DNA from: Bacteroidota bacterium
Lineage (GTDB): Bacteria; Bacteroidota; Ignavibacteria; Kryptoniales; JAKASW01
Length of the DNA: 64,000 nucleotides
Direction: 5' to 3'
NCBI GenBank assembly: GCA_021845665.1
Contig: JAJZVO010000017.1
Location: 1-64,000 of the forward strand
Shown: positions 19,769-56,049 of the stretch, piece after piece
Layout of the letters: each line of letters starts with the position of its first letter
Position numbering within the stretch: position 1 is the stretch's first letter
Position numbers and translations under genes: made by a program
Notes under the pieces: model-generated
What the model was told of the DNA's origin: nothing
Seen by the model: only the letters and a program-made list of their open reading frames with translations
The model's database searches: none

Positions 19769-20181
19769 GAATAGGATACCAGGTGCCACTTTCCGGTTTG
19801 CCGTCACGATTTTGTTTCGGAGGACTTGTGGATGATTTTACGAAATCTCAGAAGAAAAAGGTCAGAGAACTGATCCCAATCGGATTGAGCCGCGATTACG
19901 CAGACGCTATAAAAGGCGCGAAGCGAATCTGCGACTCGTTCGTGGAAGGAGAAAGCGACCCGAGAGAATTTTACATGAAGCTGTATTCGACCGTAAAAAA
20001 TAAGGACAAAGACATTGTCCGCAGATACGACGATCTCACAGGATCGCAGTACTTCCTTCGTCTCAGTGTGCTGGTACTAGACGGTGTCCTCACTCATGAT
20101 GACATAGAGTGCCTTGACGCCGAGCTAAAGGAGCGGCTGGCGCAGGTAGAGAAGAGCTTCAGGAGCCGTCGTTCAACTTAA
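19717..20181 (+). CDS. Hypothetical protein
   Basis: I do not recognise it. The frame is open for 154 residues and rich in charged helices after residue 38 (VDDFTKSQKKKVRELIPIGL, then SRDYADAIKGAKRICDSFVE). Two starts are possible: TTG 19717 with GGGAG six bases upstream, which overlaps the Arc-like gene by 52 bp, or GTG 19828 just after GGAGGA, giving 117 residues. The shorter form avoids the overlap. It also overlaps the oppositely oriented epimerase gene by 9 bp at its 3' end. Confidence 0.5.
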   Translation: MASDSKQNPDPSPDNDLGIGYQVPLSGLPSRFCFGGLVDDFTKSQKKKVRELIPIGLSRDYADAIKGAKRICDSFVEGESDPREFYMKLYSTVKNKDKDIVRRYDDLTGSQYFLRLSVLVLDGVLTHDDIECLDAELKERLAQVEKSFRSRRST

Positions 20182-21189
20182 GGGTGTGACTCCCAGGCCG
20201 GGATCGTCGTTCAGCACTATGTGTCCGTTCTCGTTTGCCGCGCCTCTAAAAGGGTCGTTCGAAATCAAAACATTTCCATCGAGATCGTTCCAGTCGACGA
20301 GCGGAGAAAGCTGGGCCGCGGCGGTTATTCCTACCGACGTCTCAATCATGCAGCCGAGCATAATCTTCATCCTGTTCGCCCGTGCGGCGTAAATCATCTT
20401 TCGTGCTTTCAGGAGTCCACCGTTTTTCTGTACCTTGATGTTAATCCCGTCATACGCGGTGGCAAGCTCCGGAATTGCGTACATCGAACTTACCGCCTCG
20501 TCGGCGATTATCGGCATCTTCACGCGCTCGCGAAGCCATCTCACGTCGTCGATTTGAGCGGCGGGCATCGGCTGCTCGATGAACTCCACGTTTTGAGTTG
20601 AGAGCCAGTTTATCCTCTCAAGCGCCTCCTCCTTTGATGTCCATCCCTCGTTTGCGTCGACTCTCAACGGCTTGTTCGTGACACTCCTGACCGCCTTGAT
20701 TATCTCTTCGTCGTTTGGCAATCCCACCTTTATTTTCAGAACGGGATAGTTCGCCGCCTCGATCACTTTCCGTATTATGACTTCCGGCGTATCGATTCCT
20801 ATGGTGAATGTCGACAGAGGGGTCTTCTCCTTTTCTCCGCCGAAATATCTATAGAGCGGGATCCCGGTCTTTTTCCCTATCCAGTCGTGCATGGCGATAT
20901 CAATTGCAGCTTTCGCGCTTGCGTCGTGCTCCGAAAGGGAATCGAGGTAATCGTTTATATACTCAAGCCTGAACGGCTCTAAGAGTCTATCGATGTCTAT
21001 CCTGCTGAAGAATTCTGCCACGCTTTCGCATGTCTCGTTGTAGCGCGCGTTTGGCGATGCCTCGCCGTAAGCCGTAATTCCATCCTTTTCGAACTCCAGA
21101 AGCACGACAGGAACAACATCTCTGGAACTCCTCGAGATCGTGAACGTGTGTTTCAAGTTAAGATCGTAACGCCGGTAATTGAGTTTCAT
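20173..21189 (-). CDS. Dipeptide epimerase (L-Ala-D/L-Glu epimerase), enolase superfamily
   Basis: Epimerises the L-Ala-D-Glu dipeptide released from peptidoglycan to L-Ala-L-Glu, so that peptidases can use it. The 338-residue protein has the muconate-lactonizing-enzyme-like barrel: catalytic Lys in PVLKIKVGLPNDEEI, metal ligands in LRVDANEGWTS, NVEFIEQPMP and IIADEAVSS, and the second Lys in DGINIKVQKNGG. These are the AEE-type features. It ends the long minus-strand run, right after an NlpC/P60 peptidase that would produce its substrate; that placement strongly supports the dipeptide role over other enolase-superfamily reactions. Confidence 0.88.
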   Translation of the reverse strand: MKLNYRRYDLNLKHTFTISRSSRDVVPVVLLEFEKDGITAYGEASPNARYNETCESVAEFFSRIDIDRLLEPFRLEYINDYLDSLSEHDASAKAAIDIAMHDWIGKKTGIPLYRYFGGEKEKTPLSTFTIGIDTPEVIIRKVIEAANYPVLKIKVGLPNDEEIIKAVRSVTNKPLRVDANEGWTSKEEALERINWLSTQNVEFIEQPMPAAQIDDVRWLRERVKMPIIADEAVSSMYAIPELATAYDGINIKVQKNGGLLKARKMIYAARANRMKIMLGCMIETSVGITAAAQLSPLVDWNDLDGNVLISNDPFRGAANENGHIVLNDDPGLGVTPLS

Positions 21190-21229
21190 GCCCTATTCTT
21201 CTTCACTTAAGTTTGTTGAATCATGTAGA

Positions 21230-21325: not shown

Positions 21326-22468
21326 CTACTTCGATGGAAGTATTCTTCTTGCCATAACGAACCTGTTCAGTTCGAATTCGTCGAACGCGGTGTCGCTCTT
21401 CAAAAGGCCGTTGATCTGCACGCGGTTGGCAGATTGAATGAAGTAGCCTCCGCCGAGATAAATAGCGACGTGCACAATCTTAGCAGGCTTGCCGTCTTCG
21501 GCTTTCGTTCCGAAGAAGAGAAGGTCACCTTTTCGCAGGTTCTCGAAGTTTGGACCCGGGTCGACTCTCTTGCCGACATACACCTGCTGGCTCGCATCGC
21601 GCGGAAGGCGAATGTCGTTCATTCGGAAGACTGTCTTTGTGAAACCTGAACAATCGACTCCCTTAGTGCTCGTTCCACCCCAGAGATATGGAAAGCCCAC
21701 CATCTTCATCGCTATCTTTTCGACTCCTTCGGCTGTCGGCTTATGTTTGGCGATGTAATGATCCTGGTATTCGACGTCGCTTGCCGGCACATAGCCGATC
21801 CTTCCATCGGGAAATTGCACTTCGAAGCTCGCGCCCGTTCTCCCGACAGGCGACAGGAGATCCGCCATGACGGCGTCTGAGATAGTTGCACCCTTGTCCC
21901 CGGGTTTGCTGCGGAGGGTCGAGAAGATGGATGTGACTATCAGTTTCCGTTTTGAATTGTAAGCGGCCAGCTCCGAAGAATCGACGCGAGTGATAATTGC
22001 AGGCTGGGCCCAGCCGAGATAGCGGTCCTCCGACTGTACAAAGAGCCAGCCGTGGTGTTCTTTGAGAATTTTCACCGTGTGCCCGAGCAAAAGCTGGCAG
22101 ACCATTTCAGATTGGTACTTCGGTGCGTGATATATATTGCCGACGCTGACGTCGACGATCCCATAGATCTTATCGCCGAGCTTCCGTTCCGGAAGAATTT
22201 CGACTGAGTCGATCACTGGTTCACCCGCGAGTTGTTCGACCCTGGACAGCAGTATAGATTCTGCGGCGATATCGTCCGTTTCGCCGCGCAGGATTATTGA
22301 GCCGCCGCTCTCCTGTCCGGTTACGTTGAAAACCGCCGTACGCGGGTCCGGGGCAAACACTGTCCTGAGCGAGTCGATTGAATTGTTAATCCGTGCGATC
22401 CGCATTGCCGTGTTGCTGCAGGCCGCAACGGCAACTGAAATTATTGCCAGTAGTAATAGTCTCTTCAT
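21326..22468 (-). CDS. NlpC/P60 endopeptidase lipoprotein with SH3 domains
   Basis: A 380-residue lipoprotein that cuts the D-Glu to diamino-acid bond of peptidoglycan peptides, YkfC-like. The N-terminus MKRLLLLAIISVAVAAC has a lipobox with Cys17. Two bacterial SH3-like repeats follow (around HAPKYQSEMVCQLLLGHTVK and STLRSKPGDKGATISDAV), then the catalytic C40 domain: Cys in GGTSTKGVDCSGFTKTVFR, His in KIVHVAIYLGGGYFI. The ATG at 22468 is preferred to a GTG at 22477 because GAGGTG ends six bases before it. Substrate release here would feed the epimerase gene downstream. Confidence 0.9.
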   Translation of the reverse strand: MKRLLLLAIISVAVAACSNTAMRIARINNSIDSLRTVFAPDPRTAVFNVTGQESGGSIILRGETDDIAAESILLSRVEQLAGEPVIDSVEILPERKLGDKIYGIVDVSVGNIYHAPKYQSEMVCQLLLGHTVKILKEHHGWLFVQSEDRYLGWAQPAIITRVDSSELAAYNSKRKLIVTSIFSTLRSKPGDKGATISDAVMADLLSPVGRTGASFEVQFPDGRIGYVPASDVEYQDHYIAKHKPTAEGVEKIAMKMVGFPYLWGGTSTKGVDCSGFTKTVFRMNDIRLPRDASQQVYVGKRVDPGPNFENLRKGDLLFFGTKAEDGKPAKIVHVAIYLGGGYFIQSANRVQINGLLKSDTAFDEFELNRFVMARRILPSK

Positions 22469-22609
22469 CTTTTGCACCTCATTAGTGATAATTTAATTCG
22501 AGAAATCAAAAAAATTACAGAGCGTGTTCAGCTTGTCAGGGTTGCTCAATCCTCATACAATGATCTCCGAATCTCCTCGCAATTCTTACATCAGGGACAC
22601 GACGAAGTT

Positions 22610-23950
22610 TCACGCCCCGGCGATTCCAGATTCGTGATTCCCGTTCCATTTCACGTAGATCATCACTCCTATAATCATCCAGACTACGCCGACACCGATG
22701 GCTTCCCAGCCGGAACTCAGGAATATGAACGAAAAGCCGATGAAGGCTATTACCGACGGAATCGGATACAACCACATCCTGAACGGCCTTTTACGAGCGG
22801 GTTCGTTTTTTCTGAGGAGCGTCAGACCGATTATTTGTCCAAGGAACTGAATCAATATCCTGCTCGACAGCGATGCCGCGATTATGAAGTCCAGGTTGAA
22901 CAGGCTTGCGACACATGTCATGATACCAACCGTAAGCAGCGAGAAGTGAGGAAAATGCTTCCGCGGATGTATTTCGCCGAGCCATTTGAAGAAGAACCCG
23001 TCGCGTGCCGCAGCGAAAGGAAGGCGGGAATAACTCATCATGAGCGAATACGTCGAACCGTAGGCGGTAATGATCACCAGGATAGTAAGGATGATCGCCC
23101 AATGCCTGCCGAGAGTCTGGTTGAACATGTCTGAGGCCACATGCGTTGATCTCGCGATTTCCTGCCATGGCATTGTGGATAGAATGGAGATATTCATAAC
23201 GGCGTAAATTAATGTCACTCCGATGACCGATAGAATTATCGCGCGCGGAAAAACGTACTCCGGTCTCTTAACTTCTTCTTCCAGGTAGCAGATATTGTAA
23301 TATCCCATCAGGTCGTACATGGCAATAAGAGTCGCGGAGCCGAGTCCTGACACGAATCCCCAGGAGAAACTGAACCAGCCGTGCGTGAAAGTGAACGCGT
23401 CCCTGACGTGGAAGTGTGTCAGCCCGACGAAGATAGTGATGCCAACGGTGACAAGCATAACGATCCACAGGAAGACTGTCACGGCGCCTACGAACTTAAC
23501 CCGGTTATAGTGAAGTATGATTGTGAAGACTCCCACGGCGAAGGCGAGTATCCTGATGTTGGTTTCGTTGAGCATCGGCCATATGAATGACGCGTACTGT
23601 ACCATTCCGACAAAGCCGGATGCGATTTCCAAAGGACCGCTCAACAGGAACGTCCAGATGAAGAGGAAAGCCGCCAGCTTACCGAAATACTTCTTGTATG
23701 CCTCCCGAAGATAGACATAGGATCCACCCTCGCCCGGGAGGGAGGTGCTGAGCTCGGCCCAGACTTGTCCGTCGGATATGGCGATTATCGCTCCGACGGC
23801 CCAGCCAAGCATTGCCTGAGGTCCTCCCATGGCGCTTATGATCAGTGGAATCGTTATGAACGGACCGATCCCGACCATGGTTGCCATGTTGCTGGCGGTC
23901 GCGTGTATCAATCCAAGACTTCGATCCAGATGGGTCTGCCTATTTTCCAT
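22610..23950 (-). CDS. APC-family amino acid permease
   Basis: A 446-residue, 12-helix amino acid/polyamine/organocation transporter. The first helix has the expected unwound glycine-rich segment (NMATMVGIGPFITIPLIISA), and GEGGSYVYLREAY plus GLGSATLIAMYDLMGYYNICY are characteristic of LAT-like and other APC members. In this position, between a GH2 enzyme and a peptidoglycan endopeptidase plus epimerase, it probably takes up amino acids or short acyl peptides released from cell walls. The exact substrate is not determined by sequence. Confidence 0.88.
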   Translation of the reverse strand: MENRQTHLDRSLGLIHATASNMATMVGIGPFITIPLIISAMGGPQAMLGWAVGAIIAISDGQVWAELSTSLPGEGGSYVYLREAYKKYFGKLAAFLFIWTFLLSGPLEIASGFVGMVQYASFIWPMLNETNIRILAFAVGVFTIILHYNRVKFVGAVTVFLWIVMLVTVGITIFVGLTHFHVRDAFTFTHGWFSFSWGFVSGLGSATLIAMYDLMGYYNICYLEEEVKRPEYVFPRAIILSVIGVTLIYAVMNISILSTMPWQEIARSTHVASDMFNQTLGRHWAIILTILVIITAYGSTYSLMMSYSRLPFAAARDGFFFKWLGEIHPRKHFPHFSLLTVGIMTCVASLFNLDFIIAASLSSRILIQFLGQIIGLTLLRKNEPARKRPFRMWLYPIPSVIAFIGFSFIFLSSGWEAIGVGVVWMIIGVMIYVKWNGNHESGIAGA

Positions 23951-24036: not shown

Positions 24037-26652
24037 TCAGCGACTACCGGTTCCGACGTTCCATCCGGAGACTTCCAGCCGCGGCGTTTTCCCGTGAAGG
24101 TCTTCGGCATGGAAATATCCTCGCACCGTTCGTGTCTCGCCGGGAAGAAGCGAAATATAATTGTGGTCCCAGAATATCGGTAGGACCGTGTCGCCGGTCT
24201 TTCCTTTCTTGATGGACAGATAAACCATGAAAGCAAGGTGGCCGGTAGGGTTATGCAGCCGGGCTGTTGCGAAATAGTCGTCGCCTCTTCTTCTGAAATC
24301 TTCTGTCACGCCGAGTCTCACGGGCGGTAAATCGTCGAGCTCCCTGAGATTCGCGTATGAGCTCGCCGTGACATAGTACGTGGATTCCTTCTCGATGAGT
24401 CTGTCGGGCGTAGTGGATAGGGCGTAAAGATTTGCGTCGACCAGCTTTGCTCCCTTGTACAACCGCACGTCGACAAAGTACGTCGGTGTAAGAGAATCGA
24501 TCGCCGGGAGATCTGTTATCTCTTCGGAGGAGTTGGCCGGGGAATTGACAACTTTTCCGAAAGCATACCGGTCTTTCATGTTGAAGTCGAGAACGCGTGC
24601 CTTCAGTAGCAGGCCTTGGGCCGGAGCCAGCGTCGAATTCACGAGGAAGATTCCCCGGGTGGCGTAATCGTAGACGACGTGTATCGGTTCGCATGCTTCC
24701 TGGGCGCCGTAGAAAGCGCCGGTGGGATTGAGATAATAGTCGAAAAGCTGCCACCACATTTTCGGCCACGCCGAGTTGTACATCCACTGAATCACGCCGG
24801 TCGATGTGAATTTCTCGGCGCCGAACGCCTCGAACATCGCGCGCATCCCCTCGTAGTTGGTGAACTGCGCTTTCCTCTCGTAATCCGCGAGGGTTTTCGG
24901 CGTGCCGAGCCGACCGTCGATTGCCGCATTGTATCTCTTGAGATTTCTGAAAATCCCGCGCGAACAATGGAAGTACCATTCGTCGTTAATGGGCCACAGG
25001 GAGTCTGGGGAAAGCATCCTGCGAAGCGATTCTGCCCGCGGCACTTCGGCGCCGGGACTCGTTTCGGTGTTGAATCCGAACGCGCCGCCGTGCGAGGTGT
25101 CGGCGTACCAGTAAACGGGCGGGACGTAGTCGTAAGGTCCGCGCATCTTGACCGCCGAGGGACCTGTCAGAACGCTCGTATGCTCCGCGGCCGAAGAAAG
25201 GAACGGTCGCGTGGTATCGTAGTTGCTCAAATCGAACCGGTACATCTTCTCGAGCTCCGGCCTCGGATGCAGATCGCTGCCGTAAAGCCATACGAAAATG
25301 CTGGGGTGATTGCGAAGCCACAGTATCTGATCTTTGAAGGACTCTTCAGCGAGTTTCATATCTTCCGGCGATCGGATGCATCCGTACTCGTCGTTGTCCT
25401 CTCCGAACAGGTTTTTCCACTCCCACTGGCAGCTGAATCCCGCCATGATGAGAATACCTTTTTCATCGCAGAGCCTGAATATGTCGCTGTTCTCGCCCCA
25501 GAATCCTTCCATCCTGATGGCGTTGAGGTGCATGTTGACGGCATAGTCGATCTCTGCTTCGAGTTTCCTTTTGTCCTGCTGCAGGAAAATCTGGTCTGCC
25601 CATCCTCCTCCGCGGATCAGAATCTTCTTCCCGTTAAGCTTGTAGCCGCGGAATCCCTTTGAATTGATGTAGTCGTTTATCTGCCGGATGCCGAAAGTGA
25701 CTTCCTTGCTGTCGGTGACCAGCCCGCCTGACCGGAATTCAAGGTGAAGCGAGTAAAGGTTGGGTTTTCCGAAATCGTGAGTCCACCAGAGCCGCGGATT
25801 CTCGATGATGAGTTGGTGAAACTCTTTCGGCGTGAACGCGACAATTTTCTTCTCGCGAGGGCGCAGTTTGACTATCTGCGAGAACGATATGTTTCCGATC
25901 GTCCCTTGAAGTGTTCCGATGACGCTTCGCGGCGCGTTGTTCGAGACCTCTGCGGATACCGTAAGCTCGGCCTTCTTCAGAGTAACCGTATCGACTTCGG
26001 ATGCGACGAAAGGATCGTGAAGCGCCACGTCTCCGGTGATGTGAAGCTCGACCGGCCTCCAGAGGCCCATGTCGCGATCGGGCGGCTCGGGGCTCCAGTC
26101 CACGAAACCGAGCGTGAGAGCGCCCGGGCCCGGCTTGTATATTTTCACTGCCAGTACATTCGTTCCTCCGAAAATAACATACCTCGTGACGTCGAACTCG
26201 AACTGCCTGAAACCGCCCAGCGTCGAATCGCCGGCGGCAATCAAATGGCCGTTCAACCAGACATCAGCCCTGTAATTGATTCCGAGGAATTTCAGGGCGA
26301 CATTGTCGAATTCAGGCGTTATGACCGGGAGCTCGAATGTGGTTCTGTACCACCAAGGCACGGCAAAGAGGGAATCGGGTATCCTGTCGAGATTTCTCCC
26401 GCGGAACGGATCCTTAAAAACACCGTCTGCGACGAGAGTTCCGAGTACCGTCGACGGAACGGACGCCGGGTACCAGCCTTTGCAGAGGAAGGACGGGGAA
26501 GATATGACTTCTCCGCTTTCTTTCGCTATCGCGGACGACTGGATCTCCCAATTATCACTAATGGCTGCAGCATGTTTTCTCTCTGCCGCGTTCGCGAAGG
26601 CCGCCCACGTCGTGAGCACCAGGATGGCCGAGACTTTTAAGAACCGTTTCAT
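24037..26652 (-). CDS. GH2 exo-beta-D-glucosaminidase-like enzyme
   Basis: A secreted 871-residue GH2 enzyme (signal peptide MKRFLKVSAILVLTTWAAFA then NAAE). The N-terminal sugar-binding domain (NYRADVWLNGHLIAAGD), sandwich domain, and barrel (GGGWADQIFLQQDKRKLEAE, MEGFWGENSDIF) follow the exo-chitosanase/CsxA subgroup. In place of the usual Asn-Glu acid/base it has Asp460 in FVWLYGSDLHPRP, and Glu530 in FGFNTETSPGAE is the likely nucleophile; the 70-residue spacing is that of CsxA-type exo-glucosaminidases. It would remove GlcN from chitosan or de-N-acetylated amino-sugar oligomers. A related endo-beta-mannosidase role is less likely. Confidence 0.85.
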   Translation of the reverse strand: MKRFLKVSAILVLTTWAAFANAAERKHAAAISDNWEIQSSAIAKESGEVISSPSFLCKGWYPASVPSTVLGTLVADGVFKDPFRGRNLDRIPDSLFAVPWWYRTTFELPVITPEFDNVALKFLGINYRADVWLNGHLIAAGDSTLGGFRQFEFDVTRYVIFGGTNVLAVKIYKPGPGALTLGFVDWSPEPPDRDMGLWRPVELHITGDVALHDPFVASEVDTVTLKKAELTVSAEVSNNAPRSVIGTLQGTIGNISFSQIVKLRPREKKIVAFTPKEFHQLIIENPRLWWTHDFGKPNLYSLHLEFRSGGLVTDSKEVTFGIRQINDYINSKGFRGYKLNGKKILIRGGGWADQIFLQQDKRKLEAEIDYAVNMHLNAIRMEGFWGENSDIFRLCDEKGILIMAGFSCQWEWKNLFGEDNDEYGCIRSPEDMKLAEESFKDQILWLRNHPSIFVWLYGSDLHPRPELEKMYRFDLSNYDTTRPFLSSAAEHTSVLTGPSAVKMRGPYDYVPPVYWYADTSHGGAFGFNTETSPGAEVPRAESLRRMLSPDSLWPINDEWYFHCSRGIFRNLKRYNAAIDGRLGTPKTLADYERKAQFTNYEGMRAMFEAFGAEKFTSTGVIQWMYNSAWPKMWWQLFDYYLNPTGAFYGAQEACEPIHVVYDYATRGIFLVNSTLAPAQGLLLKARVLDFNMKDRYAFGKVVNSPANSSEEITDLPAIDSLTPTYFVDVRLYKGAKLVDANLYALSTTPDRLIEKESTYYVTASSYANLRELDDLPPVRLGVTEDFRRRGDDYFATARLHNPTGHLAFMVYLSIKKGKTGDTVLPIFWDHNYISLLPGETRTVRGYFHAEDLHGKTPRLEVSGWNVGTGSR

Positions 26653-29700: not shown

Positions 29701-29771
29701 AGGAAAGCTGTGAGTGTTAGAATGAATGTGGCTTGTTTAAGGTAATAGTGGTGCTTAGGACTGGATCTCAT
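26718..29771 (-). CDS. GH3 beta-N-acetylglucosaminidase fused to a beta-lactamase-fold serine hydrolase
   Basis: A 1017-residue lipoprotein candidate (lipobox LQLGC, Cys28). Residues about 70-410 are a NagZ-type GH3 barrel: AKHFPGHGDTHTDSHLGLP is the NagZ-specific His-Asp loop and Asp340 in GLVVTDALTMGG the nucleophile. A GH3 C-terminal sandwich follows, and residues 625-1017 form a class C-like serine hydrolase with Ser694-Leu-Thr-Lys in DLASLTKVTATTQ and a Tyr in KMVYSDINFLILG. Such fusions occur in Bacteroidota; the pair would cut GlcNAc from muropeptides and act on the peptide or an ester. Its start overlaps the kinase stop by four bases. Confidence 0.92.
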   Translation of the reverse strand: MRSSPKHHYYLKQATFILTLTAFLQLGCASTGRAMHNTSPSSSPAAISCDMNSCSACYRPDNSAGYNYTWKTDKHWVDSTLNALTLREKVGQMIVAFSMTPYVSYNDPEYLELAHMVRDQHIGGIAVSLGNIYEQAMLLNRLQRLAGIPLLISSDYENGLGMRLEGGISFPSNMALGATRDSSLVYRIGRVVGEEARAVGVGQVYAPVSDVNDNPENPIINVRSFGENPQLVSSLASAFVKGVQSEGAVATAKHFPGHGDTHTDSHLGLPVVDYGLSRLDTLELVPFRGDIAAGVKSIMVAHIAFPKIDSEAGVPGTLSRAITTGLLKDSLGFHGLVVTDALTMGGVVKEFTDGAAAIRAVNAGADILLMPPDNHLAIDAIIDAVKRGRISESRIDDAVRKILEIKSELGLNRARLVNLDDIDRFVGTESHELLAERAARRSITIVKNDNNVLPLQYRQPQNILCLVVSDNGNPYVADRFKEELLKRYENVSFFQINPTSNELDFQNAMNAVDTSSLVLVPAYIQWRSGTGTIDFTPQIQDFLDKVTSSGKPVVMVSFGNPYLLRSVPNVTAYVCAYGAMKVSVQAAVQALFGEINVSGKLPVTIPGVAEYGQGIDMPQTSLRFAMPQDAGFSPTRLARLDSTMNYWIADSAFPGAELLVVRNGLVVYDKAFGTYDYSPTSQAVGFNTMYDLASLTKVTATTQAAMRLYGEGRLDLDAPVVKYLPQFGQNGKEKVTIRNLMVHDSGLPPDPPRHLWWVGDIPKQQLERLLKHPWDFVIPDSFGTNFNSAHAAMWNSLYATPLVYKTGTKMVYSDINFLILGKVIEKITGMPLAEYLENNFYKPLGMTRTMFVPPLAMKDMCAPTEYDSVAGQLIQGYVHDENSRSLGGAVGHAGLFSTAYNLGVLIQMMRNGGVYDGRRYLQDSVIALFTKKQSDLSTRALGWDTKAPRYSSAGSLFSPNSWGHLGFTGTSIWVDPVRNLFVILLTNRVCPTRNDYKIGRVRPIVGNQVIEALENQK

Positions 29772-49306: not shown

Positions 49307-50140
49307 ATGAAGAGATCCTTCGGCACAATTACCGTTTCATGCCTCCTCTTGATTATCATTGCAGGCTGGATTATCCGGAATGGTCGGCCCGAAAAGAAAG
49401 AAGAAAAAATGAGCGACACGAAGCGAACGATACTGGCAGTCGGCGCGCATGCCGGCGATATGGAAATAGCCTGCGGCGCCGTCATGGCGAAAGAAGCCGG
49501 GCTGGGTGACCGCATCGTATTTCTTCACCTTACGCTTGGCGAAGCCGGCAATCCCAGACTGTCCGCCGAGGAATACGGCGTGCAGAAAAGGAGGGAGGCT
49601 GTTGAAGTCGACAGCCTCCTGGGTGGAGAAGCCATCTTCGGCCCGTATAAAGACGGCCAACTGCCGAACGACGAAACGGCTAAAAAGTATGTCGCCAACG
49701 TCATAAGGATGGTGCAGCCGACGGATATTATTACGCATTGGAAGAACAGCATACATCCGGATCATGCAAACGCTCATGCCATAACGGTGGATGCCGTCCT
49801 CCTCGCGAGCCTTCCGTCGGTTTCAACCGTAACCCCTTACTCGAAGACTGAATATCCTGCTTGGAGGGGTGTGAAGAGAGTGCTTTACACCGAGAATTGG
49901 GAAGACATGGACGGTTATGAGCCGTACGTGTATGTCGACGTCACCGAATCATTTGAGACATGGGCAAATGCGGTCTCCAAATACGAGTTCATAGGCGGCA
50001 AAATATCCAGCTTCCCGTACTTGAATTACTACAAGGCCCTGGCCACCGTTCGCGGAGCCGAAGGAGGTTTCCGGTACGCCGAAACGTTCGATATCGACAG
50101 GTTTGAGAAGAAACTCAGATGGAGGAGCTTGGAGCCTTGA
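49307..50140 (+). CDS. PIG-L/LmbE-type deacetylase-like protein, membrane anchored
   Basis: A 277-residue PIG-L family protein, normally a zinc de-N-acetylase of GlcNAc conjugates. An N-terminal hydrophobic segment (FGTITVSCLLLIIIAGWII) may anchor it outside the cytoplasm, or ATG 49409 could give a cytoplasmic form. The usual HPDDxE motif reads AHAGDME: His48, Asp51 and Glu53 remain but the first Asp, the catalytic base in family enzymes, is Gly50. HPDHANAH supplies the other zinc ligand. It may use another base or bind without cutting. It overlaps the second double-GNAT gene. Confidence 0.82.
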   Translation: MKRSFGTITVSCLLLIIIAGWIIRNGRPEKKEEKMSDTKRTILAVGAHAGDMEIACGAVMAKEAGLGDRIVFLHLTLGEAGNPRLSAEEYGVQKRREAVEVDSLLGGEAIFGPYKDGQLPNDETAKKYVANVIRMVQPTDIITHWKNSIHPDHANAHAITVDAVLLASLPSVSTVTPYSKTEYPAWRGVKRVLYTENWEDMDGYEPYVYVDVTESFETWANAVSKYEFIGGKISSFPYLNYYKALATVRGAEGGFRYAETFDIDRFEKKLRWRSLEP

Positions 50141-51111
50141 AACCCAGAACTGCGCCTTCGAAGAAAACGAAGTCTGTTGGGGCTGCGGAAATAAAACCCT
50201 TTGATGGTAAGGAAGAAGGGCGGATCGTCGATCTCTGGAATCTTTGTCTCAGTCGGGATCCAATTACCACAGAGACTTTCCGTCGGAAGGTCCTTCTCGA
50301 CGAGAATTTCGATCCGCGCGGTTGCCTTGTCGCGTTTTCCGGAGGACGGGCGGTGGGTTTTTCAGCGGCCGTTCGGAGAAAGCGGCCTTATTTCGGAGCA
50401 GGTATGGAACAAGGGACGGGATGGATCACGGTTTTTTTCGTGCATCCGGAATTCCGTGGTATGGGAGTGGGAAAGAACCTGATTGAAGCCTCCGAAGAGT
50501 TCCTGAAGACAGGGGGGATCAAAGAGATTTACGTGTCGTCCTATACCCCAAATTATTTCGCACCCGGCATAGACCTCGATGCCTACCCGGAGAGTCACTC
50601 TCTTCTCGGAAAGCTCGGCTATAAGAGATCTGAAAGAGTTTACGGCATGGGGCGATCGCTCCTCGACTTCGAGGCTTCGTCGGAAGCAAAGGAAGCACTC
50701 AAGTCCCTCAAGGCGAAGGGTATCGACATTCACGTGTTCGAACCGAGGTACATTTCCGGGCTCCTGGATTTCCTCGGGACAAACTATCCCGGCGATCTTT
50801 TCAGGGTAGCACTTGAGGAACTGAGACAGGATCCCAGCACTGACCGCATGCTCGTCGCAGTGCAGGGCAGCCGCGTAGTAGGATTCAGTCATTACGAGGG
50901 CGAGCACTTCGGACCTTTTGCGATCGACCAGTCGTTGTCAGGGATGGGAGTCGGAACTTGTCTGTATGATTGGACTGCACTCCACATGAAGGAGAAAGGA
51001 ATCCCGAATCTATGGCTCGCCTGGGCGTCCGGACATGCAAAGGATTTTTACTACAAACGAGGCCTGAAGGTCACAAGGCGATACGAAATTATGATGAAGG
51101 AGTTGAAGTAG
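50137..51111 (+). CDS. Double GNAT-fold acetyltransferase, paralogue
   Basis: A 324-residue protein with two GNAT domains and clear similarity to the protein at 47038: both share RKVLLDENFD- and RVLLDENFD-type stretches and a YFxPGID block (SYTPNYFAPGIDLDAYPESH). Acetyl-CoA loops are HPEFRGMGVGKNLIEASEEF (first domain) and QSLSGMGVGTCLYDWT (second). TTG 50137 overlapping the PIG-L stop is preferred because GGAGGAG lies nine bases upstream; ATG 50119 would also be in frame. The two genes bracket the HGSNAT-like and PIG-L-like genes, so a recent duplication with divergence is likely. Confidence 0.8.
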   Translation: MKPRTAPSKKTKSVGAAEIKPFDGKEEGRIVDLWNLCLSRDPITTETFRRKVLLDENFDPRGCLVAFSGGRAVGFSAAVRRKRPYFGAGMEQGTGWITVFFVHPEFRGMGVGKNLIEASEEFLKTGGIKEIYVSSYTPNYFAPGIDLDAYPESHSLLGKLGYKRSERVYGMGRSLLDFEASSEAKEALKSLKAKGIDIHVFEPRYISGLLDFLGTNYPGDLFRVALEELRQDPSTDRMLVAVQGSRVVGFSHYEGEHFGPFAIDQSLSGMGVGTCLYDWTALHMKEKGIPNLWLAWASGHAKDFYYKRGLKVTRRYEIMMKELK

Positions 51112-51195: not shown

Positions 51196-52692
51196 ATGAA
51201 CTTCCATCCGATTGACTGGGTGATCCTTGTGATCTATCTGGCCGGTACCGTCTTCGCCGGATTGAGGGCTAGAAGGTACGTCGAGAACATGGAGGGGTAT
51301 TACGTTGCCGGTAGAAAGGTTAAGGTCGCACTCGGTTCGGCAACTCTCATAGCCACGGAAATCGGAGTCGTGACCTTCATGTACTTTGGACAGCTCGGTT
51401 ACCTCACCGGGTTTTCGTGCTTCATACTCGGCCTAATAGGTGTGTTCGGATACATGGTAATTGGAAAGACCGGGTTCATTGTCGCGGGCTTGAGGCGGTT
51501 GAAGGTAATCACGATACCGGAATTTTATGAGTTGCGGTACAACAAGTCCGTTCGATGGCTCGGCGGAGTCCTCCTCTTTGTCGGCGGTGTCCTTAACATG
51601 GGCGTCTTCCTGCGGTTCGACGGAATTTTCTTGACGGAAACGATGGGCCTCGGCGAGAGCGAGAAGGCTATCGTCATGGTCATCATGCTGATCATCGTCG
51701 TCAGCTACACGATTCTGGGCGGCATGTTTTCGGTTGTCATAACAGACTTCATTCAGTTCGTGGTCCTTTCGTTTGGCATGTTCATCGCGACTATTTTTGT
51801 TTTGATGAAAGTGAACATGGCTTCAATTGCGAACACTGTCGTTACACATTATGGCAAAGCGGGTATCGATCCGATCCTGAATCCGCAATTTGGCTGGGTT
51901 TTCATATTCTGGATGCTTGTCGGGAGTGTCGCGCTTTCCGCGCTGAATCAGCCGGCGGTCTCGAAGGCCTTCGCTTCGGAATCCCCTGAGGTCGGCAGGA
52001 AGGTGTTTCTCTTCAGCGGCTTCACGCTGGCGGGAAGATACATGATACCGATGCTATGGGGGGCAGCCGCGCTAGCTGTGTTCGGTCCGCATATTAATTC
52101 ACTCGTTGCTATGCCGCGGCTTCTCGGGAAGCTGGTACCTTCTGGATTGCTGGGGCTGATGGTGGCCGGCATGCTTGCCGCGTCGATGTCCACGTACAGC
52201 GCGTATCTGCTTGCCTGGAGCACCGTGGCGACGAGAGATGTAATATCTCCTCTGCTCAAGGGGCCGATGTCTGACAGGTGGAATGTGACCATAACTAGAC
52301 TCGTCGCCGCCGCCATAGGAATCTTCATGCTCGTGTTCGGGCTGTTCTATCAGCTTCCCTCTACTGCTTTTCAATACCTGTCGCTTACCGGCGCTATGTA
52401 TGCGGCGGGAGCATTCGCCTGTGTCACGGCTGGTCTTTATTGGAAAAAGGCGAATACAGTTGGAGCGTATTCCGGCCTGGCATTCGGGGCTGTCGCTCCG
52501 GCGGCTTTCCTGCTGCTGTCCCAGTTCAAGGACGCACTGCCCACAAACCTCTTCTTTCTGGTAGACGTGAACGTGTCCGGGTTACTGAGCTTCATTCTCG
52601 CCGCAGCGGGAATGGTAATTGGGTCTTTACTGACTCAGAAGACGCACGCCCCGGTTAAGCTTCCTGAGTCGTATTACAATAACGAGGCATGA
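51196..52692 (+). CDS. Sodium:solute symporter (SSS family)
   Basis: A 498-residue Na+-coupled importer with about 13 helices. DWVILVIYLAGTVFAGLRAR and EGYYVAGRKVKVALGSATLI match the SSS start, GFSCFILGLIGVFGYMVIG and PEFYELRYNKSVRWLGGVLL are the usual helices 3-4 region, and VAGMLAASMSTYSAYLLAWS covers the helix 8 Na+-site serines. Sugar and sialic-acid/MurNAc-type acids are common substrates in such clusters; here it would bring in amino sugars freed by NamZ and GH3. A small membrane protein gene follows after 10 bp. Confidence 0.9.
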   Translation: MNFHPIDWVILVIYLAGTVFAGLRARRYVENMEGYYVAGRKVKVALGSATLIATEIGVVTFMYFGQLGYLTGFSCFILGLIGVFGYMVIGKTGFIVAGLRRLKVITIPEFYELRYNKSVRWLGGVLLFVGGVLNMGVFLRFDGIFLTETMGLGESEKAIVMVIMLIIVVSYTILGGMFSVVITDFIQFVVLSFGMFIATIFVLMKVNMASIANTVVTHYGKAGIDPILNPQFGWVFIFWMLVGSVALSALNQPAVSKAFASESPEVGRKVFLFSGFTLAGRYMIPMLWGAAALAVFGPHINSLVAMPRLLGKLVPSGLLGLMVAGMLAASMSTYSAYLLAWSTVATRDVISPLLKGPMSDRWNVTITRLVAAAIGIFMLVFGLFYQLPSTAFQYLSLTGAMYAAGAFACVTAGLYWKKANTVGAYSGLAFGAVAPAAFLLLSQFKDALPTNLFFLVDVNVSGLLSFILAAAGMVIGSLLTQKTHAPVKLPESYYNNEA

Positions 52693-52702
52693 GGTAATTC
52701 AT

Positions 52703-52870
52703 ATGTCTGAAGGTAGTCTGATCTGGATCATCTTGTACGGCATTTCGACGTTGACCTTCTTTTCGGTGGCCGCCGGAATCACTGCGTACGGTATTCAAGA
52801 CCTCAGGTCACTGCTGTCGAAAGCCAATAAGAGAGTCGTGGAAGTGAAGAATGATAAAGGGAAAAGCTAG
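52703..52870 (+). CDS. 55-residue single-span protein, probable symporter accessory protein
   Basis: Begins 10 bp after the symporter stop with GAGG eight bases before the ATG. MSEGSLIWIILYGISTLTFF continues as one transmembrane helix and then a charged tail (KANKRVVEVKNDKGKS). It overlaps the next gene by 20 bp. Small partner proteins of this size and topology are known beside SSS transporters, and I place it there by position and shape, not by a sequence match. It may adjust transporter assembly or activity. Confidence 0.75.
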   Translation: MSEGSLIWIILYGISTLTFFSVAAGITAYGIQDLRSLLSKANKRVVEVKNDKGKS

Positions 52871-54788
52871 TCATGGTATGACCAGCAGCTCAATTATGAA
52901 GACAAATGCAATTGCATCCGGTTTCCTTTTGATGATGACTTTTCTTTCACTCCTTCTTTATGGCGGCATTGGAATCGCGGGATCTCCTTCAGGTTCCGGC
53001 GTCTCACCATTTCCGTCCCAACAGGGTTTCGACCACAAGTCTCATTTGAAATCCAACATCGTAAGGGTGGAAGTAGACGCCGGGACGGTTGTTTCCCGTG
53101 TGAGCCCATATCTTTACGGACTCAACGTAGCGAGGTGGGACGAGGACCTTTTCCCGGGACCGTCGAGCGACATGCTTCTCGATTGCGACCGCGACGCAAT
53201 AAGAAAGGTAAAAGAGGCAGGGTTCACGCTGTTGAAATATCCCGGCGGAAACGACGCCGATCATTACATCTGGAACAGCCCGGACAACAGTGCCGATGAA
53301 ATGAACACCGACGAGTACGCAGCTCTTCTCAAGACGATAGGGGCACATGGTTTCATTACGGTGAATTTTAACGAGCCGCCTTCTCTAGCTGCGGAATGGG
53401 TCAGGTACTGCAACAAGGTCAAAGGATACGACATAAAATACTGGGAAGTCGGCGACGAGCAATGGGGGGCATGGGCCGCAGGGCATGCGACGCCGGAAAA
53501 GTATGCGGAGCGCTTCATTAAGTTCGCGAAGGCGATGAAAGCGGTCGATCCGGCCATCAGGATTGCCGCCGATGTCAAGCCGTCGGGCGATCCGAACGAC
53601 TGGACCTGTCGCGTGCTAAAGGCTGCCGGTAACTACATAGACCTGGTCACGTTTTCCTATTACCCGCTTACAGATAAGGACGAACATCCCGATTCACTCT
53701 TCGCAAGTCTGCCAACCTACCGTCGGGATTACGACGCAATCCGTCACGCGCTCCATGAGACGCTGCCGGCAATCGATCCCATCCACGGGAAAGTGAGAGC
53801 CGACACGATGTGGATTGCCGACGTTGGCTACAACTCCGTCAACCGCAGGCCGGGTCCTATCACCCTTTCCATTGCGAATGCCTTATGGACGGGAGATCTC
53901 CTTGGTACGATGGCCGAGCTTGGCGAGAAGATCTCTTGCTTCTGGGCGCTGCACAATTCGTACCCGCCGGCGGGAGGGGACTACGGAATATTGTCGGAAG
54001 ACGGGAAGAACACGCGAAGTTACAGCTACTACGTGTTTCCGGCCTACTCGCATCTGTTCGGCCACAAAGTAGTACAATGTATTTCCTCCAACCCGTCGTT
54101 GTCTGCTTATGCCGCCCTCCATGACAGAGATACACTTTCGATCATTCTAATCAACAAAGACAAGCGACGGGCAGAGAACGTCCACATCGGCCTGAGAGAT
54201 TTTCAACCTGACTCGCATACATCCGGATGGATACTCAATGCGAAGCACAAACTTGATAAGCTGTCAGATGGTCCACGGGCCGGTAGCGCTTTTGTCGAAA
54301 AGGTCCCGCCGTACTCGCTGGTTGTCCTTCACCTTTTAAGAAAGGGAACGGTCTTGCCGCCGACAAACCTCGCGCTGCACGCGCGCGCAACTGCATCGAC
54401 AAGCGCGATGAACGGTCCTGACTTCGGGCCTTCGAGTGCTGTCGACGGGAAACTGTACACCCGATGGGCTTCTGCGGCCTTGTGGGGAGCCGACAAAGGA
54501 CTGGATCCTGAGTGGTTCCAGATCGATCTTGAGCGTCCGCGGCATTTTAACGAAGTGGTGATCCACTGGGCTAGAGGGCACGGCGTTGATTACAAACTTG
54601 AGGTATCTTCAGGCGGCGTCAGATGGAAAACAATTTATAGTGAGACGAACGGCCGCGGCGGAACAGAAAGGATTAGATTCAAACAGGTCGGAAAGCGATA
54701 CATCAGGCTCACGGGATCGAAAGGATCCCCGGCAATCTCAAGTTATTCCATATATGAGTTCGAGGTGTTCAATTCCACAAAGAAGTGA
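52851..54788 (+). CDS. Clan-A glycosidase-like protein with F5/8-type C domain
   Basis: A 645-residue secreted or membrane-attached protein. A hydrophobic segment (MKTNAIASGFLLMMTFLSLL at residue 16 on) serves as signal/anchor; starts at 52851, 52878 or 52896 cannot be separated. Residues 68-480 form an arabinofuranosidase-like barrel (GH51/GH39-like): YWEVGDEQWGAWA has the acid/base Glu203 with an unusual Asp before it. The expected nucleophile motif (TEYN) is replaced by WIADVGYNS, so Glu is lost, although Asp324 is close. Residues 505-640 are a discoidin domain (FGPSSAVDGKLYTRWAS) for carbohydrate binding. It might bind rather than cut. Confidence 0.72.
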   Translation: MIKGKASHGMTSSSIMKTNAIASGFLLMMTFLSLLLYGGIGIAGSPSGSGVSPFPSQQGFDHKSHLKSNIVRVEVDAGTVVSRVSPYLYGLNVARWDEDLFPGPSSDMLLDCDRDAIRKVKEAGFTLLKYPGGNDADHYIWNSPDNSADEMNTDEYAALLKTIGAHGFITVNFNEPPSLAAEWVRYCNKVKGYDIKYWEVGDEQWGAWAAGHATPEKYAERFIKFAKAMKAVDPAIRIAADVKPSGDPNDWTCRVLKAAGNYIDLVTFSYYPLTDKDEHPDSLFASLPTYRRDYDAIRHALHETLPAIDPIHGKVRADTMWIADVGYNSVNRRPGPITLSIANALWTGDLLGTMAELGEKISCFWALHNSYPPAGGDYGILSEDGKNTRSYSYYVFPAYSHLFGHKVVQCISSNPSLSAYAALHDRDTLSIILINKDKRRAENVHIGLRDFQPDSHTSGWILNAKHKLDKLSDGPRAGSAFVEKVPPYSLVVLHLLRKGTVLPPTNLALHARATASTSAMNGPDFGPSSAVDGKLYTRWASAALWGADKGLDPEWFQIDLERPRHFNEVVIHWARGHGVDYKLEVSSGGVRWKTIYSETNGRGGTERIRFKQVGKRYIRLTGSKGSPAISSYSIYEFEVFNSTKK

Positions 54789-54867
54789 ACACGGTTCGCC
54801 TCACCATGCTGCATGACACGGAGATAAATCTCAATTGAATGCAGGACTCAAGACAGGAGATGCATGA

Positions 54868-56049
54868 GTGGCGGAGAATAAAATAAAGATCGGGTGTGAA
54901 CGGCTGATCGGTCCTGAACGGAGTCTGATTGCCGGGAAGCAGGCCGGTATAGTGACAAATCACAGCGGCGTATTGCCGGACGGCGAGCATATTGTCGACG
55001 CTCTGAGAACCGGGCACGACATATCAATCAAAGCCCTTTTTTCCCCGGAACATGGGATAAGGGGCGATGCTCCCGCCGGCAAACATGTCCGCAACGAGAT
55101 AGATCCAAGGACGGGCATCCAGGTCTATTCGCTTTACGGGGAAAACAATAAGCCGGATAAATCCATGCTTCAAGGTATAGAGGTGCTCGTTTATGACATT
55201 CAGGACGTTGGCGTCAGGTTCTATACATACATCAGCACGCTAGCCCTCGTCATGGAAGCGGCGGCGGAAAATGATATACCTCTCGTGCTGCTCGATCGGC
55301 CCCTCGTCCTTCCCGGCAACATGACCGACGGTCCCGTTCTCAGTGATGAGGTGCGGTCGTTCGTAGGCATGCTTCCCGTTCCGGTACTGTACAGTCTTAC
55401 TCCCGGTGAGCTCGCGGAGCTGATACGGAATGAGCACCTGGCGCAGAAGGGTTTGGACCTTGAATTAACCGTGCTGGAGCTGGAGAATTACTCGCGCTCG
55501 ATGTGGTACGACGAAACAGGCCTCGACTGGCTTCCACCCTCCCCGAATATCCCGACTATCGAAACCGCGGTCGTGTATCCTGGCACAGCGTTGATTGAAG
55601 GTACCAACATAAGCGAGGGAAGGGGAACCGATTCTCCCTTCAGGCTTATCGGCGCGCCATTCGTCGACAAGATGAAACTAGCCGAGACACTGAATTCATA
55701 TGAACTTCCCGGGCTTGATTTCATCCCCGTAGACTTTGTACCGAGGGACAGGAGCGCCGTAAGTCACACAAGGTTTAAGGATAAAATATGCCACGGAATT
55801 AATGTCGTCGTAACTAATAGGGATATGATCAAGCCGGTTGAGGCAGGTGTGGCCATCATCTGCGCGTTGAGAAAGCTGAGCCCTTCAGAACTGACATTTC
55901 GGTGTGACGGTGCGTTTGACAGGCTGGCCGGTAACAGGGAAGTGCGGGAGTTGATCGCGCGAGGAGCCGATTATCTGGAAGTCACGTCGACCTGGGAACA
56001 TGAGCTCGATCTATTCAGAGGCTCAATGAGAAAATACTTTCTTTACTGA
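54868..56049 (+). CDS. Exo-beta-N-acetylmuramidase NamZ (DUF1343, GH171)
   Basis: A 393-residue DUF1343 protein. This family releases terminal MurNAc from the non-reducing end of peptidoglycan fragments. KQAGIVTNHSGVLPDGEHIV, FSPEHGIRGDAPAGKHVRNE and VYDIQDVGVRFYTYISTLAL are the family's three conserved blocks, followed by PSPNIPTIETAVVYPGTALI and GTNISEGRGTDSPFRLIGAP. Start GTG 54868 has GGAG about eight bases upstream; no signal peptide is seen from this start, so it may be cytoplasmic or rely on uptake of disaccharides. With the kinase and GH3 genes it completes the sugar arm of wall salvage. It ends 17 bp from the convergent Rrf2 gene. Confidence 0.9.
   Translation: MAENKIKIGCERLIGPERSLIAGKQAGIVTNHSGVLPDGEHIVDALRTGHDISIKALFSPEHGIRGDAPAGKHVRNEIDPRTGIQVYSLYGENNKPDKSMLQGIEVLVYDIQDVGVRFYTYISTLALVMEAAAENDIPLVLLDRPLVLPGNMTDGPVLSDEVRSFVGMLPVPVLYSLTPGELAELIRNEHLAQKGLDLELTVLELENYSRSMWYDETGLDWLPPSPNIPTIETAVVYPGTALIEGTNISEGRGTDSPFRLIGAPFVDKMKLAETLNSYELPGLDFIPVDFVPRDRSAVSHTRFKDKICHGINVVVTNRDMIKPVEAGVAIICALRKLSPSELTFRCDGAFDRLAGNREVRELIARGADYLEVTSTWEHELDLFRGSMRKYFLY

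Follow-up and report, generated by a model that had tools for sequence, protein, structure and literature searches.

The divergent gene cluster at positions 20173-56049 of the window (the whole stretch of 64,000 nucleotides of Bacteroidota DNA analysed here) fits a composite of two related modules that are often clustered, and we propose, with the considerations for and against about evenly balanced, that it serves the scavenging of the cell wall of other bacteria by a route of import, re-acetylation and subsequent cleavage. The general theme of peptidoglycan and amino-sugar salvage, put forward in a preliminary description of this DNA, is well supported, the nearest solved relatives of the locus proteins being NamZ, a MurNAc/GlcNAc kinase, an exo-glucosaminidase and a predicted acetyltransferase.

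Layout and gene content of the locus

Open reading frame calling recovers the 12-gene minus-strand run described earlier as 12 consecutive ORFs at 20173-43261, and the arms diverge, as described, from a spacer of about 1 kb (1,012 bp); the plus arm, said to hold 10 genes, comprises nine ORFs at 44274-56049. A tenth plus-strand gene was not found, the extra plus-strand ORFs in the 335-bp gap between the POT and GNAT1 genes being only 25-52 aa long. Apart from the spacer, the gaps in the locus range from -22 to about 250 bp, the exceptions being the 335 bp between the POT and GNAT1 genes and the 432 bp between the transglutaminase-core and Big_5 genes. No terminator-like site was found in the 1,012-bp spacer, and its three promoter-like sites, as against 1.4 expected, are no clear excess. 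The right-hand boundary was placed correctly, the Rrf2/SUF genes beginning after 56067. The genes are as follows.

20173..21189, minus: AEE, enolase-superfamily L-Ala-D/L-Glu epimerase-like (Pfam MR_MLE; NCBIfam DgcA at 220 bits, below cut-off)
21326..22477, minus: NlpC/P60 endopeptidase with SH3 domain and lipoprotein-like start (Pfam; N-terminus)
22610..23950, minus: amino-acid permease (Pfam AA_permease_2)
24037..26652, minus: GH2 exo-beta-D-glucosaminidase, CsxA-like (Pfam Ig_GlcNase; 2vzs, E 8.1e-159)
26718..29771, minus: fusion of GH3 (NagZ-like) and AmiE-like serine hydrolase, lipoprotein-like start (Pfam; locus-type group in tree)
29768..30742, minus: BadF-family kinase (nearest solved relative 8zo3, a MurNAc/GlcNAc kinase, E 1.8e-37)
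30807..33305, minus: secreted Amidase_2 with Big_5 repeats, type IX tail and weak SLT-like N-terminus (Pfam, NCBIfam)
33381..34874, minus: secreted transglutaminase-core protein (Pfam)
35307..37619, minus: secreted Big_5 protein with type IX tail (Pfam, NCBIfam)
37638..38270, minus: 210-aa exported protein (no Pfam match)
38400..40088, minus: beta-helix-like surface protein with type IX tail (Beta_helix match below cut-off)
40343..43261, minus: TonB-dependent receptor of TIGR01782 type (Pfam, NCBIfam)
44274..45182, plus: exported class-A-beta-lactamase-like serine hydrolase (Pfam Beta-lactamase2)
45200..46702, plus: POT oligopeptide:H+ symporter (TIGR00924 above cut-off)
47038..48003, plus: module gene 1, GNAT1, tandem GNAT, GlmA-like (5kga/5kf1, E 1.8e-9; conserved neighbours)
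48130..49305, plus: module gene 2, NagX/DUF5009 membrane acyltransferase-like (NagX model, motif)
49307..50140, plus: module gene 3, PIG-L-like, membrane-anchored or exported (HPDD reads HAGD)
50119..51111, plus: module gene 4, GNAT2, tandem GNAT, GlmA-like (5kga/5kf1, E 7.3e-17)
51196..52692, plus: module gene 5, sodium:solute symporter, SSS (Pfam SSF)
52851..54788, plus: module gene 6, GH51-like barrel with CBM32-like domain (sequence, profile, alignment)
54868..56049, plus: module gene 7, NamZ with N and C domains, without signal peptide (Pfam; N-terminus; alignment)

Domain content was examined by a Pfam scan of all 21 locus proteins and by NCBIfam for 20 of them. The earlier domain calls mostly hold. 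The scans show MR_MLE, NlpC/P60 with SH3, permease, GH2, GH3 with beta-lactamase, BadF, Amidase_2 with type IX tail and TonB receptor in the minus arm, and the class-A-like serine hydrolase, POT, two tandem GNATs, NagX/DUF5009, PIG-L, SSS, F5/8 and NamZ_N with NamZ_C in the plus arm; several proteins had been left unnamed, specifically the transglutaminase-core protein, the type IX-tailed proteins at 35307-37619 and 38400-40088, PIG-L and the F5/8-domain protein. The type IX sorting domain (Por_Secre_tail/TIGR04183) is above cut-off in three of the 21 proteins, and none of the 21 has a SusD Pfam match at E 0.001 that would make a SusC/SusD pair with the receptor.

Individual assignments differ in reach. 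The AEE protein stays below the NCBIfam equivalog cut-offs (145.1 vs 343 bits; 140.6 vs 500 bits), as does the BadF kinase with respect to the NagK model. In the GH2 enzyme, D460 and E530 correspond in the alignment to residues 469 and 541 of 2vzs, which we take to be catalytic. The joining of a NagZ-type GH3 to an amidase-type partner is seen by Pfam, and the fusion carries the stretch KHFPGHGDTHTDSH. The SLT match of the secreted amidase (E 0.013) is below cut-off, and domain identification gave no assignment for the N-terminal 300 aa of the Big_5 protein at 35307..37619. The beta-helix-like gene, called as an ORF at 38400-40514, overlaps the receptor gene and is better started at 40088, with the signal-like MRKMVTALFISAALAI. 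A resistance role for the class-A-like serine hydrolase was not adopted because its bla_class_A score of 142.1 bits is below the cut-off of 200.

The two arms among relatives

The neighbourhood, whose comparison across relatives the preliminary description proposed, is conserved for one of its parts. The seven-gene module GNAT1-NagX-PIG-L-GNAT2-SSS-GH51-like-NamZ, which makes up most of the plus arm, is present whole, in order and on one contig in 7 of the 13 genus genomes, and G243, from another family, has all seven genes reordered; since the gene order of the module is kept, we rejected the possibility of all the genes being scattered in relatives. In G008, 17 of the 21 locus genes, from both arms, lie within 53 kb of one contig, with an internal rearrangement in which NlpC-AEE switched arm yet stayed in the cluster. 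The window and G008 have the two arms together, G002 and G003 in part, but the arms separate in G006 (minus arm present, module absent) and in G001 and G004 (module present, minus-arm core absent). Over the 13 genus genomes the co-occurrence of minus-arm core and module is not significant (Fisher p = 0.27), so that the notion of both arms always travelling together was rejected as well. Because the arms are separable and their co-occurrence is not significant, the earlier claim of one two-armed pathway is too strong; what stands of it is the shared theme and the frequent clustering.

The same separability and p value speak for a more radical alternative, namely that two unrelated operons became neighbours by chance and that only the minus arm has a cell-wall role. 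We consider this decidedly improbable: the plus arm itself holds NamZ and GlmA-like GNATs, the arms are joined, wholly or partly, in the four genomes named above, and the NlpC-AEE pair of G008 remained in the cluster on the other arm.

The minus-arm core is absent from 6 of the 13 genus genomes. GH2 is found in all 13, beside the locus-type GH3 fusion in seven and elsewhere in six. In the GH3-fusion tree, a BadF-paired, core-type clade (support 0.94) includes the copies from G001, G002, G004, G007, G010 and G012; a scattering of GH3-fusion matches on separate contigs was rejected on this ground. The genome from which the window comes has a separate core copy of the BadF-GH3 fusion (C10) outside the locus. 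The enzyme classes are the same as in recycling pathways, which could suggest that the cell simply recycles its own wall, but the core copies elsewhere in the genome, the type IX-tailed proteins and TonB receptor that the locus adds, and the patchy occurrence of the minus-arm core make this very hard to believe.

MurQ is above cut-off in the genome of the window at G000:C15, outside the locus, and NagA is also encoded elsewhere. Among genomes with the module, neither MurQ nor NagA was found above curated cut-offs in G004 (a draft, 94% complete), nor NagA in G001 (a draft, 98% complete). The G008 locus also encodes a protein of GHL10, the family to which the wall hydrolase DigH belongs.

Module enzymes and the proposed route

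Both domains of the module NamZ are above the Pfam cut-offs (263.7 and 153.1 bits vs 26.9 and 25). An N-terminal hydrophobic stretch is absent from 10 of 10 module copies (nine measured, that of G009 judged by eye), whereas all 16 other NamZ copies checked in the phylum have such a stretch or signal peptide; the genome of the window itself has a separate secreted NamZ (C95) outside the locus. Among the positions conserved at 90% or more in the 16 secreted proteins, 73 are invariant in the nine aligned module copies and one is replaced in all. We propose from these sequences that the module NamZ is cytoplasmic.

The similarity to 5kga/5kf1, labelled in the PDB only as a predicted acetyltransferase, spans residues 10-314 of 321 in GNAT1 (E 1.8e-9) and 34-261 of 330 in GNAT2 (E 7.3e-17). 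Since we take this group to be GlmA, both proteins resemble a glucosaminide N-acetyltransferase. Around the seven loci with GlmA-like GNATs outside the module family, no match to NamZ, BadF, GH3, GH2, NagX or PIG-L was found, and two of them have a distant serine-hydrolase match nearby. In module gene 2, the His of the NagX-family motif LAHxxWxGxT is present, while its score of 141.6 bits is below the NagX equivalog cut-off of 480 (NCBIfam). The PIG-L-like protein reads H[AC]GD instead of the metal/base motif HPDD in 10 of 10 subfamily members, thus losing an Asp that is kept in the diacetylchitobiose deacetylases that match it; its second motif, HxDH, is retained in all nine aligned members, and its predicted structure has a mean pLDDT of 70. 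A PIG-L protein next to three acetyltransferases is an odd pairing, and this and the lost Asp count against our best explanation.

The GH51-like protein has D202-E203 where the GH51 acid/base motif has Asn-Glu, and in 10 of 10 members of its subfamily the motif reads GDE and the strand expected to bear the nucleophile lacks a conserved Glu, as against GNE (10) or ANE (1) and a nucleophile Glu in 11 of 11 remote homologues. By neither residue does it qualify as GH51. Three MAFFT modes place no conserved Glu in the nucleophile column (M320 in two, G326 in one), and the nearest Glu, at column 315, occurs in only 6 of 10 members; the position rests on the alignment because the structure model is weak (mean pLDDT 59). 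Close relatives (E < 1e-40) occur in 3 of 296 phylum genomes, all among the four with close GNAT1 relatives. The protein may found a new hexosaminidase family. It is a tentative and rather doubtful suggestion that this family arose from a retaining clan-A ancestor and turned to substrate-assisted catalysis, within a pathway that imports, re-acetylates and cleaves inside the cell and with altered PIG-L-like chemistry: the ancestor would have lost the nucleophile Glu and changed Asn-Glu to Asp-Glu, and the N-acetyl group of GlcNAc or MurNAc would replace the nucleophile, as in GH20/GH18. If so, the protein would offer a natural test of the switch from a retaining glycosidase to substrate-assisted catalysis.

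The plus-arm module may instead be directed at chitin or chitosan along the lines of the archaeal chitin route, with a surface GH18, deacetylation of disaccharides by PIG-L, an exo-glucosaminidase, re-acetylation, phosphorylation and a repurposed NamZ. Upstream of the module, G002, G008, G009 and G011 encode a GH18 protein, with a type IX tail match in all four (above cut-off only in G008 and G009). Of the nine module-bearing genomes, five have a GH18 relative of at least 60% identity, that of G004 being on another contig, as against none of the four genomes that lack the module (p 0.10). Besides, the GH2 enzyme is CsxA-type, the closest match of the CBM32-like domain in the GH51-like protein is a chitosanase/glucanase domain, and PIG-L matches diacetylchitobiose deacetylases. 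On the other hand, the window, G003, G001 and G005 have the module without a close GH18 relative (best 34-44% identity), the module NamZ retains the residues conserved in its secreted counterparts, the PIG-L motif lacks the Asp that deacetylases keep, and the same cluster holds an amidase, NlpC/P60 and the epimerase, all three directed at peptidoglycan. A chitin route is therefore unlikely in our view, though worth keeping in mind.

Returning to the scavenging of foreign cell walls, gene content, conservation, the absence of a NamZ signal peptide and the active-site residues are established, and we infer the substrates, the transport steps and the order of events. The minus arm would strip wall material both extracellularly and in the periplasm, with the amidase that bears a type IX tail and further surface proteins acting first, TonB-dependent uptake following, and trimming by the NagZ-AmiE-type lipoprotein, NlpC/P60 and the glucosaminidase, which would remove de-N-acetylated GlcN. 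Peptides would enter through POT or the permease and be handled by the epimerase. Sugars would be processed by the module: SSS (perhaps NagX too) would import mono- or disaccharides containing MurNAc or GlcN, the two GlmA-like GNATs and NagX would restore N-acetyl groups at the expense of cytosolic acetyl-CoA, cytoplasmic NamZ would then release MurNAc, and the MurK-like kinase, together with the MurQ and NagA that other parts of the genome encode, would lead into central metabolism. Such an order would suit partly de-N-acetylated peptidoglycan.

The protein families with their nearest solved relatives, module order, the G008 cluster with its GHL10, the G243 module, the occurrence of close GH51-like relatives only among genomes with close GNAT1 relatives, the NamZ features, MurQ and NagA elsewhere and the C10 and C95 copies count for the scavenging reading; the non-significant co-occurrence of the arms, the MurQ/NagA gaps in G004 and G001, the upstream GH18 in four genomes, which could mean chitin, and the GlmA-like GNAT loci without salvage partners count against it. 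Bacterial wall residue is a large carbon and nitrogen pool in soils and sediments, and in Gram-positive bacteria much of the wall is de-N-acetylated, a state that should impede enzymes of the NagZ type; if the reading is true, acetyltransferase-like proteins and a cytoplasmic NamZ would give uncultured bacteria a concrete route to such wall.

Known systems compared

Salvage of wall sugars is a known theme; what looks unusual is the present combination, together with two of its enzymes. Clostridium acetobutylicum reportedly has nagZ-murK-glmA salvage genes, and the locus here likewise brings together a NagZ-type GH3, a putative MurNAc/GlcNAc kinase and a predicted glucosaminide N-acetyltransferase, with 8zo3 and the 5kf1 group as nearest solved relatives; it differs in the Gram-negative cell plan, two GlmA-like genes, a NamZ predicted to be cytoplasmic, PIG-L-like and GH51-like partners, and TonB and type IX parts. 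The murQRP-amiE-nagZ-namZ genes of Bacillus subtilis also unite NagZ, AmiE and NamZ functions, there with phosphotransferase import and exported enzymes, whereas here NagZ and AmiE are fused and NamZ is predicted to be cytoplasmic. The archaeal chitin route combines a diacetylchitobiose deacetylase with a GH35 exo-glucosaminidase; the present locus shares a PIG-L-type protein and an exo-glucosaminidase but has GH2 instead of GH35, an altered PIG-L motif and NamZ. The GH51-like protein is related to GH51 arabinofuranosidases by sequence, profile and fold, unlike them in its Asp-Glu and missing nucleophile Glu.

Among the papers listed by literature searches, no title or abstract opening described this combination. 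The ampG/murTKQ cluster of Tannerella forsythia, with its MurK kinase, is described as scavenging foreign peptidoglycan (PMC7670621, PMC10465942); the locus here shares a MurK-like kinase and, as proposed, that role, and differs in having MurQ elsewhere, an acetyltransferase set and a predicted cytoplasmic NamZ, with no AmpG model among its Pfam and NCBIfam matches. Published nag glucosamine pathways include a NagX-family membrane protein with a His motif, distantly related to TfMurT, and a NagK-like kinase (PMC9007349). By comparison with that account, the His motif, a NagK-like kinase and NagA in the same genome recur here, while the NagX score is far below the family cut-off and the setting is that of a NamZ module.

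Layout of the two arms

The window belongs to an assembly of 4.64 Mb in 135 contigs (95.6% completeness). In the NCBI taxonomy, Candidatus Kryptoniota is part of the FCB group. The preliminary description had twelve minus-strand and ten plus-strand genes diverging from one 1-kb spacer: the divergence is borne out, the spacer measuring 1,012 bp, and so are the twelve, but the plus arm holds nine genes, a search of it for a tenth having found none. ARAGORN and Rfam (gathering thresholds) gave no matches over the window.

Genes of the minus arm (20173-43261, minus strand), from the spacer outward
TonB receptor (TIGR01782 type)
38400-40514 (start re-placed at 40088), beta-helix-like protein with type IX tail
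37638-38270, unknown 210-aa exported protein
35307-37619, Big_5 protein with type IX tail
transglutaminase-core protein
30807-33305, Amidase_2 with type IX tail
BadF kinase
GH3-serine hydrolase fusion
GH2
amino-acid permease
NlpC/P60
MR_MLE epimerase (AEE)

Genes of the plus arm (44274-56049, plus strand), in order; the last seven (47038-56049) form module A
class-A-like serine hydrolase
POT
tandem GNAT1
NagX/DUF5009
49307-50140, PIG-L
tandem GNAT2
SSS
F5/8 (CBM32-type) domain protein, GH51-like
NamZ

The nearest solved relatives are the exo-beta-D-glucosaminidase 2vzs for GH2 (its residues 469 and 541 are D460 and E530 here), the MurNAc/GlcNAc kinase 8zo3 for BadF, 4k05 and 4jja for NamZ, and BshB1 and diacetylchitobiose deacetylases for PIG-L. 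Both GNATs are closest to the 5kf1/5kga group (PDB name: predicted acetyltransferase), which we take to be GlmA of C. acetobutylicum, over residues 10-314 of 321 (GNAT1) and 34-261 of 330 (GNAT2).

The N-terminus of the amidase resembles SLT only weakly (E 0.013, under the cut-off), and the protein is perhaps a two-activity wall hydrolase. The N-terminal 300 aa of the Big_5 protein look by eye like a barrel-type glycosidase (DGFIIDAEVEFE); they gave zero Pfam matches and no meaningful PDB match. Rrf2-SUF iron-sulfur genes lie directly behind NamZ on the opposite strand (56067-60696).

Conservation of module A and its ties to the minus arm

Module A is complete, on one contig and in the same order, in seven of the 13 genus genomes, our own included (the window, G001, G002, G003, G004, G008 and G011). 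It is also complete in G009, with NamZ divided between two contigs, and in G005 a contig ends directly after the GH51-like and NamZ genes. The NamZ proteins of the other four (G006, G007, G010, G012) are all of different types (46-50% identity); in G006, searches for PIG-L, GNAT1 and the GH51-like protein also found none, and absence from the other three is judged from NamZ alone. All seven genes recur in G243, of a different family in the same class, on two contigs both ending inside PIG-L (GNAT1-PIGL / PIGL-GNAT2-GH51like-NagX-NamZ-SSS).

Among 296 genomes drawn from the phylum, close relatives (E < 1e-40) of PIG-L occur in four (our own, G008, G165, G243), of GNAT1 in four (our own, G008, G143, G243) and of the GH51-like protein in three (our own, G008, G243); laxer limits give 6, 11 and 15 genomes, respectively. 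The hypergeometric chance of three of three falling among four of 296 is 9e-7, which is no true probability because two of the three genomes share a genus. PIG-L of G165 sits on an 8-kb contig among unrelated neighbours, and GNAT1 of G143 at a contig end, with no PIG-L match in that genome at E 1e-20. At seven loci (12-20 kb) around GlmA-like GNATs of other genomes there was no NamZ, BadF, GH3, GH2, NagX or PIG-L, and a distant serine-hydrolase match at two; the association is thus particular to module A.

In a tree of the GH3 fusions, a locus type (window, contig C145 of G003, G005, G006 with two copies, G008, G009, G011) separates from a core type (clade support 0.94), which is paired with BadF elsewhere in the genome (our own copy at C10). 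The minus-arm core is found in 7/13 genomes, six of which also carry module A, as do three of the six genomes without the core (p = 0.27, scoring G005 positive from a partial module and G002 as coreless despite an amidase, transglutaminase, Big5, 210-aa protein, beta-helix-like protein and TonB receptor adjoining its module A). GH2 (at least 56% identity) is present in all 13, adjoining the locus-type GH3 fusion in the seven core-bearing genomes and lying elsewhere in the other six.

The fullest counterpart, G008 C25:16134-68807, holds 17 of 21 locus genes. Outside module A these include GH2, POT, the GH3 fusion, BadF, amidase, transglutaminase, Big5 and the 210-aa protein; NlpC-AEE follows module A, and in the window forms the far end of the opposite arm. 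Neither the permease nor the class-A-like protein has a match in this locus, and a full-length one is also missing for the receptor and for the beta-helix protein. On C99 of G003, TonB and beta-helix-like genes are joined to a complete plus arm. Of the one pathway proposed earlier there survives a real, partly conserved salvage locus, and not a single fixed pathway; we regard it as a new variation on peptidoglycan salvage, marked by its cytoplasmic NamZ and its GH51-like enzyme.

In G007, which has no module-type NamZ, GH2, NlpC and AEE lie within 7.5 kb on C9 (L100:2752-10248), so these three are able to travel together.

Distinctive features of three module A proteins

Ahead of the conserved TNH motif, none of the nine module NamZ proteins measured exceeds 0.97 in its best 11-residue Kyte-Doolittle mean, and by eye the G009 start has no hydrophobic stretch either; the 16 other phylum copies whose neighbourhoods were retrieved, our own paralogue at C95 included, reach 2.47-3.36. 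Outside the phylum, L017, L021 and L023 are low, L022 reaches 2.22, L014 2.55, and L018 is a fusion. In the window a stop codon immediately precedes the GTG start, making a hidden signal peptide unlikely. Of the positions at least 90% conserved in the 16 secreted proteins, 73 are invariant in the nine aligned module copies and one, T97, is replaced by D/E in all nine, a count that leaves out G243 and positions varying among module copies. The retention of conserved residues argues for the same MurNAc chemistry, predicted to take place inside the cell. NamZ-BadF-serine hydrolase-GH3 clusters occur in Fermentithermobacillaceae (L017, L021, L022, L023), with zero GNAT1/GNAT2 matches within the stretches searched.

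Searches by sequence, by profile and by fold agree in relating the GH51-like protein to GH51. The acid/base motif is GDE in 10/10 family members, and GNE in ten and ANE in one of the 11 remote homologues (those retrieved from 13 non-family matches); the strand expected to bear the nucleophile Glu, (A/V/I)(D/N)VGYNS, contains no Glu in 10/10, and that Glu is present in 11/11 remote homologues. Profile alignment to 3s2c independently paired GDE with GNE, ending before the nucleophile strand. Substrate-assisted N-acetylhexosaminidases employ Asp-Glu and no protein nucleophile. Judged by its motifs, the family would fit such catalysis, which would suit an N-acetyl-sugar module; the protein may equally have lost its activity or work by inversion, and it is worth testing.

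The PIG-L-like proteins carry H[AC]GDME in place of HPDDxE in 10/10 members (window, seven genus mates, G165, G243) and retain the second motif, HxDH, in 9/9 aligned; G071, a plainer homologue, retains HPDD. We withhold the label of active deacetylase. Given its hydrophobic N-terminal segment, the window protein is probably periplasmic, separate from the cytosolic GNATs, so that a futile circle would not be necessary.

A proposed salvage route and the chitin alternative

Immediately upstream of module A in G008, G009 and G011 stand GH18, a 719-757-aa protein and a PorV/FadL-like protein; G002 has the same trio upstream (middle protein 704 aa), with a second TonB receptor and a beta-helix-like gene intervening. 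The PorV/FadL match is above cut-off in G008 only, and the type IX tail of GH18 in G008 and G009 only. The middle protein has no Pfam match at E 0.001:
L037:7675-9834 (G008)
L035:6931-9204 (G011)
L033:2630-4744 (G002)
L094:709-2883 (G009)

GH18 (at least 60% identity) occurs in 5/9 genomes with module A versus 0/4 without (p 0.10), one of the five, G004, having it on a different contig from the module. The main rival reading is chitin or chitosan use, fed by GH18 and the exo-glucosaminidase. A GHL10 protein with a type IX tail, encoded inside the G008 locus (L038:9568-11940), possibly acts on peptide-free wall strands.

We favour a peptidoglycan route in which wall material would be stripped outside and imported, the GNATs would re-acetylate the sugars inside the cell, and NamZ would then cleave, the kinase, MurQ (C15) and NagA (C86) feeding the products in. 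Against it count the position of MurQ and NagA outside the locus and, over curated cut-offs, the absence of both from G004 and of NagA from G001, which carry module A. NagX, whose His motif is found by pattern in 8/9 module copies (G008 being the exception), would acetylate across the membrane, as proposed for NagX in PMC9007349, which also describes it as distantly related to TfMurT, a MurNAc transporter. Pairing GH3 with re-acetylation has a precedent in a fungal GH3 protein that includes a glucosamine acetyltransferase region (PMC4680927). The nearest published Gram-negative analogue found is the nine-gene ampG/murTKQ unit of T. forsythia (PMC7670621, PMC10465942).
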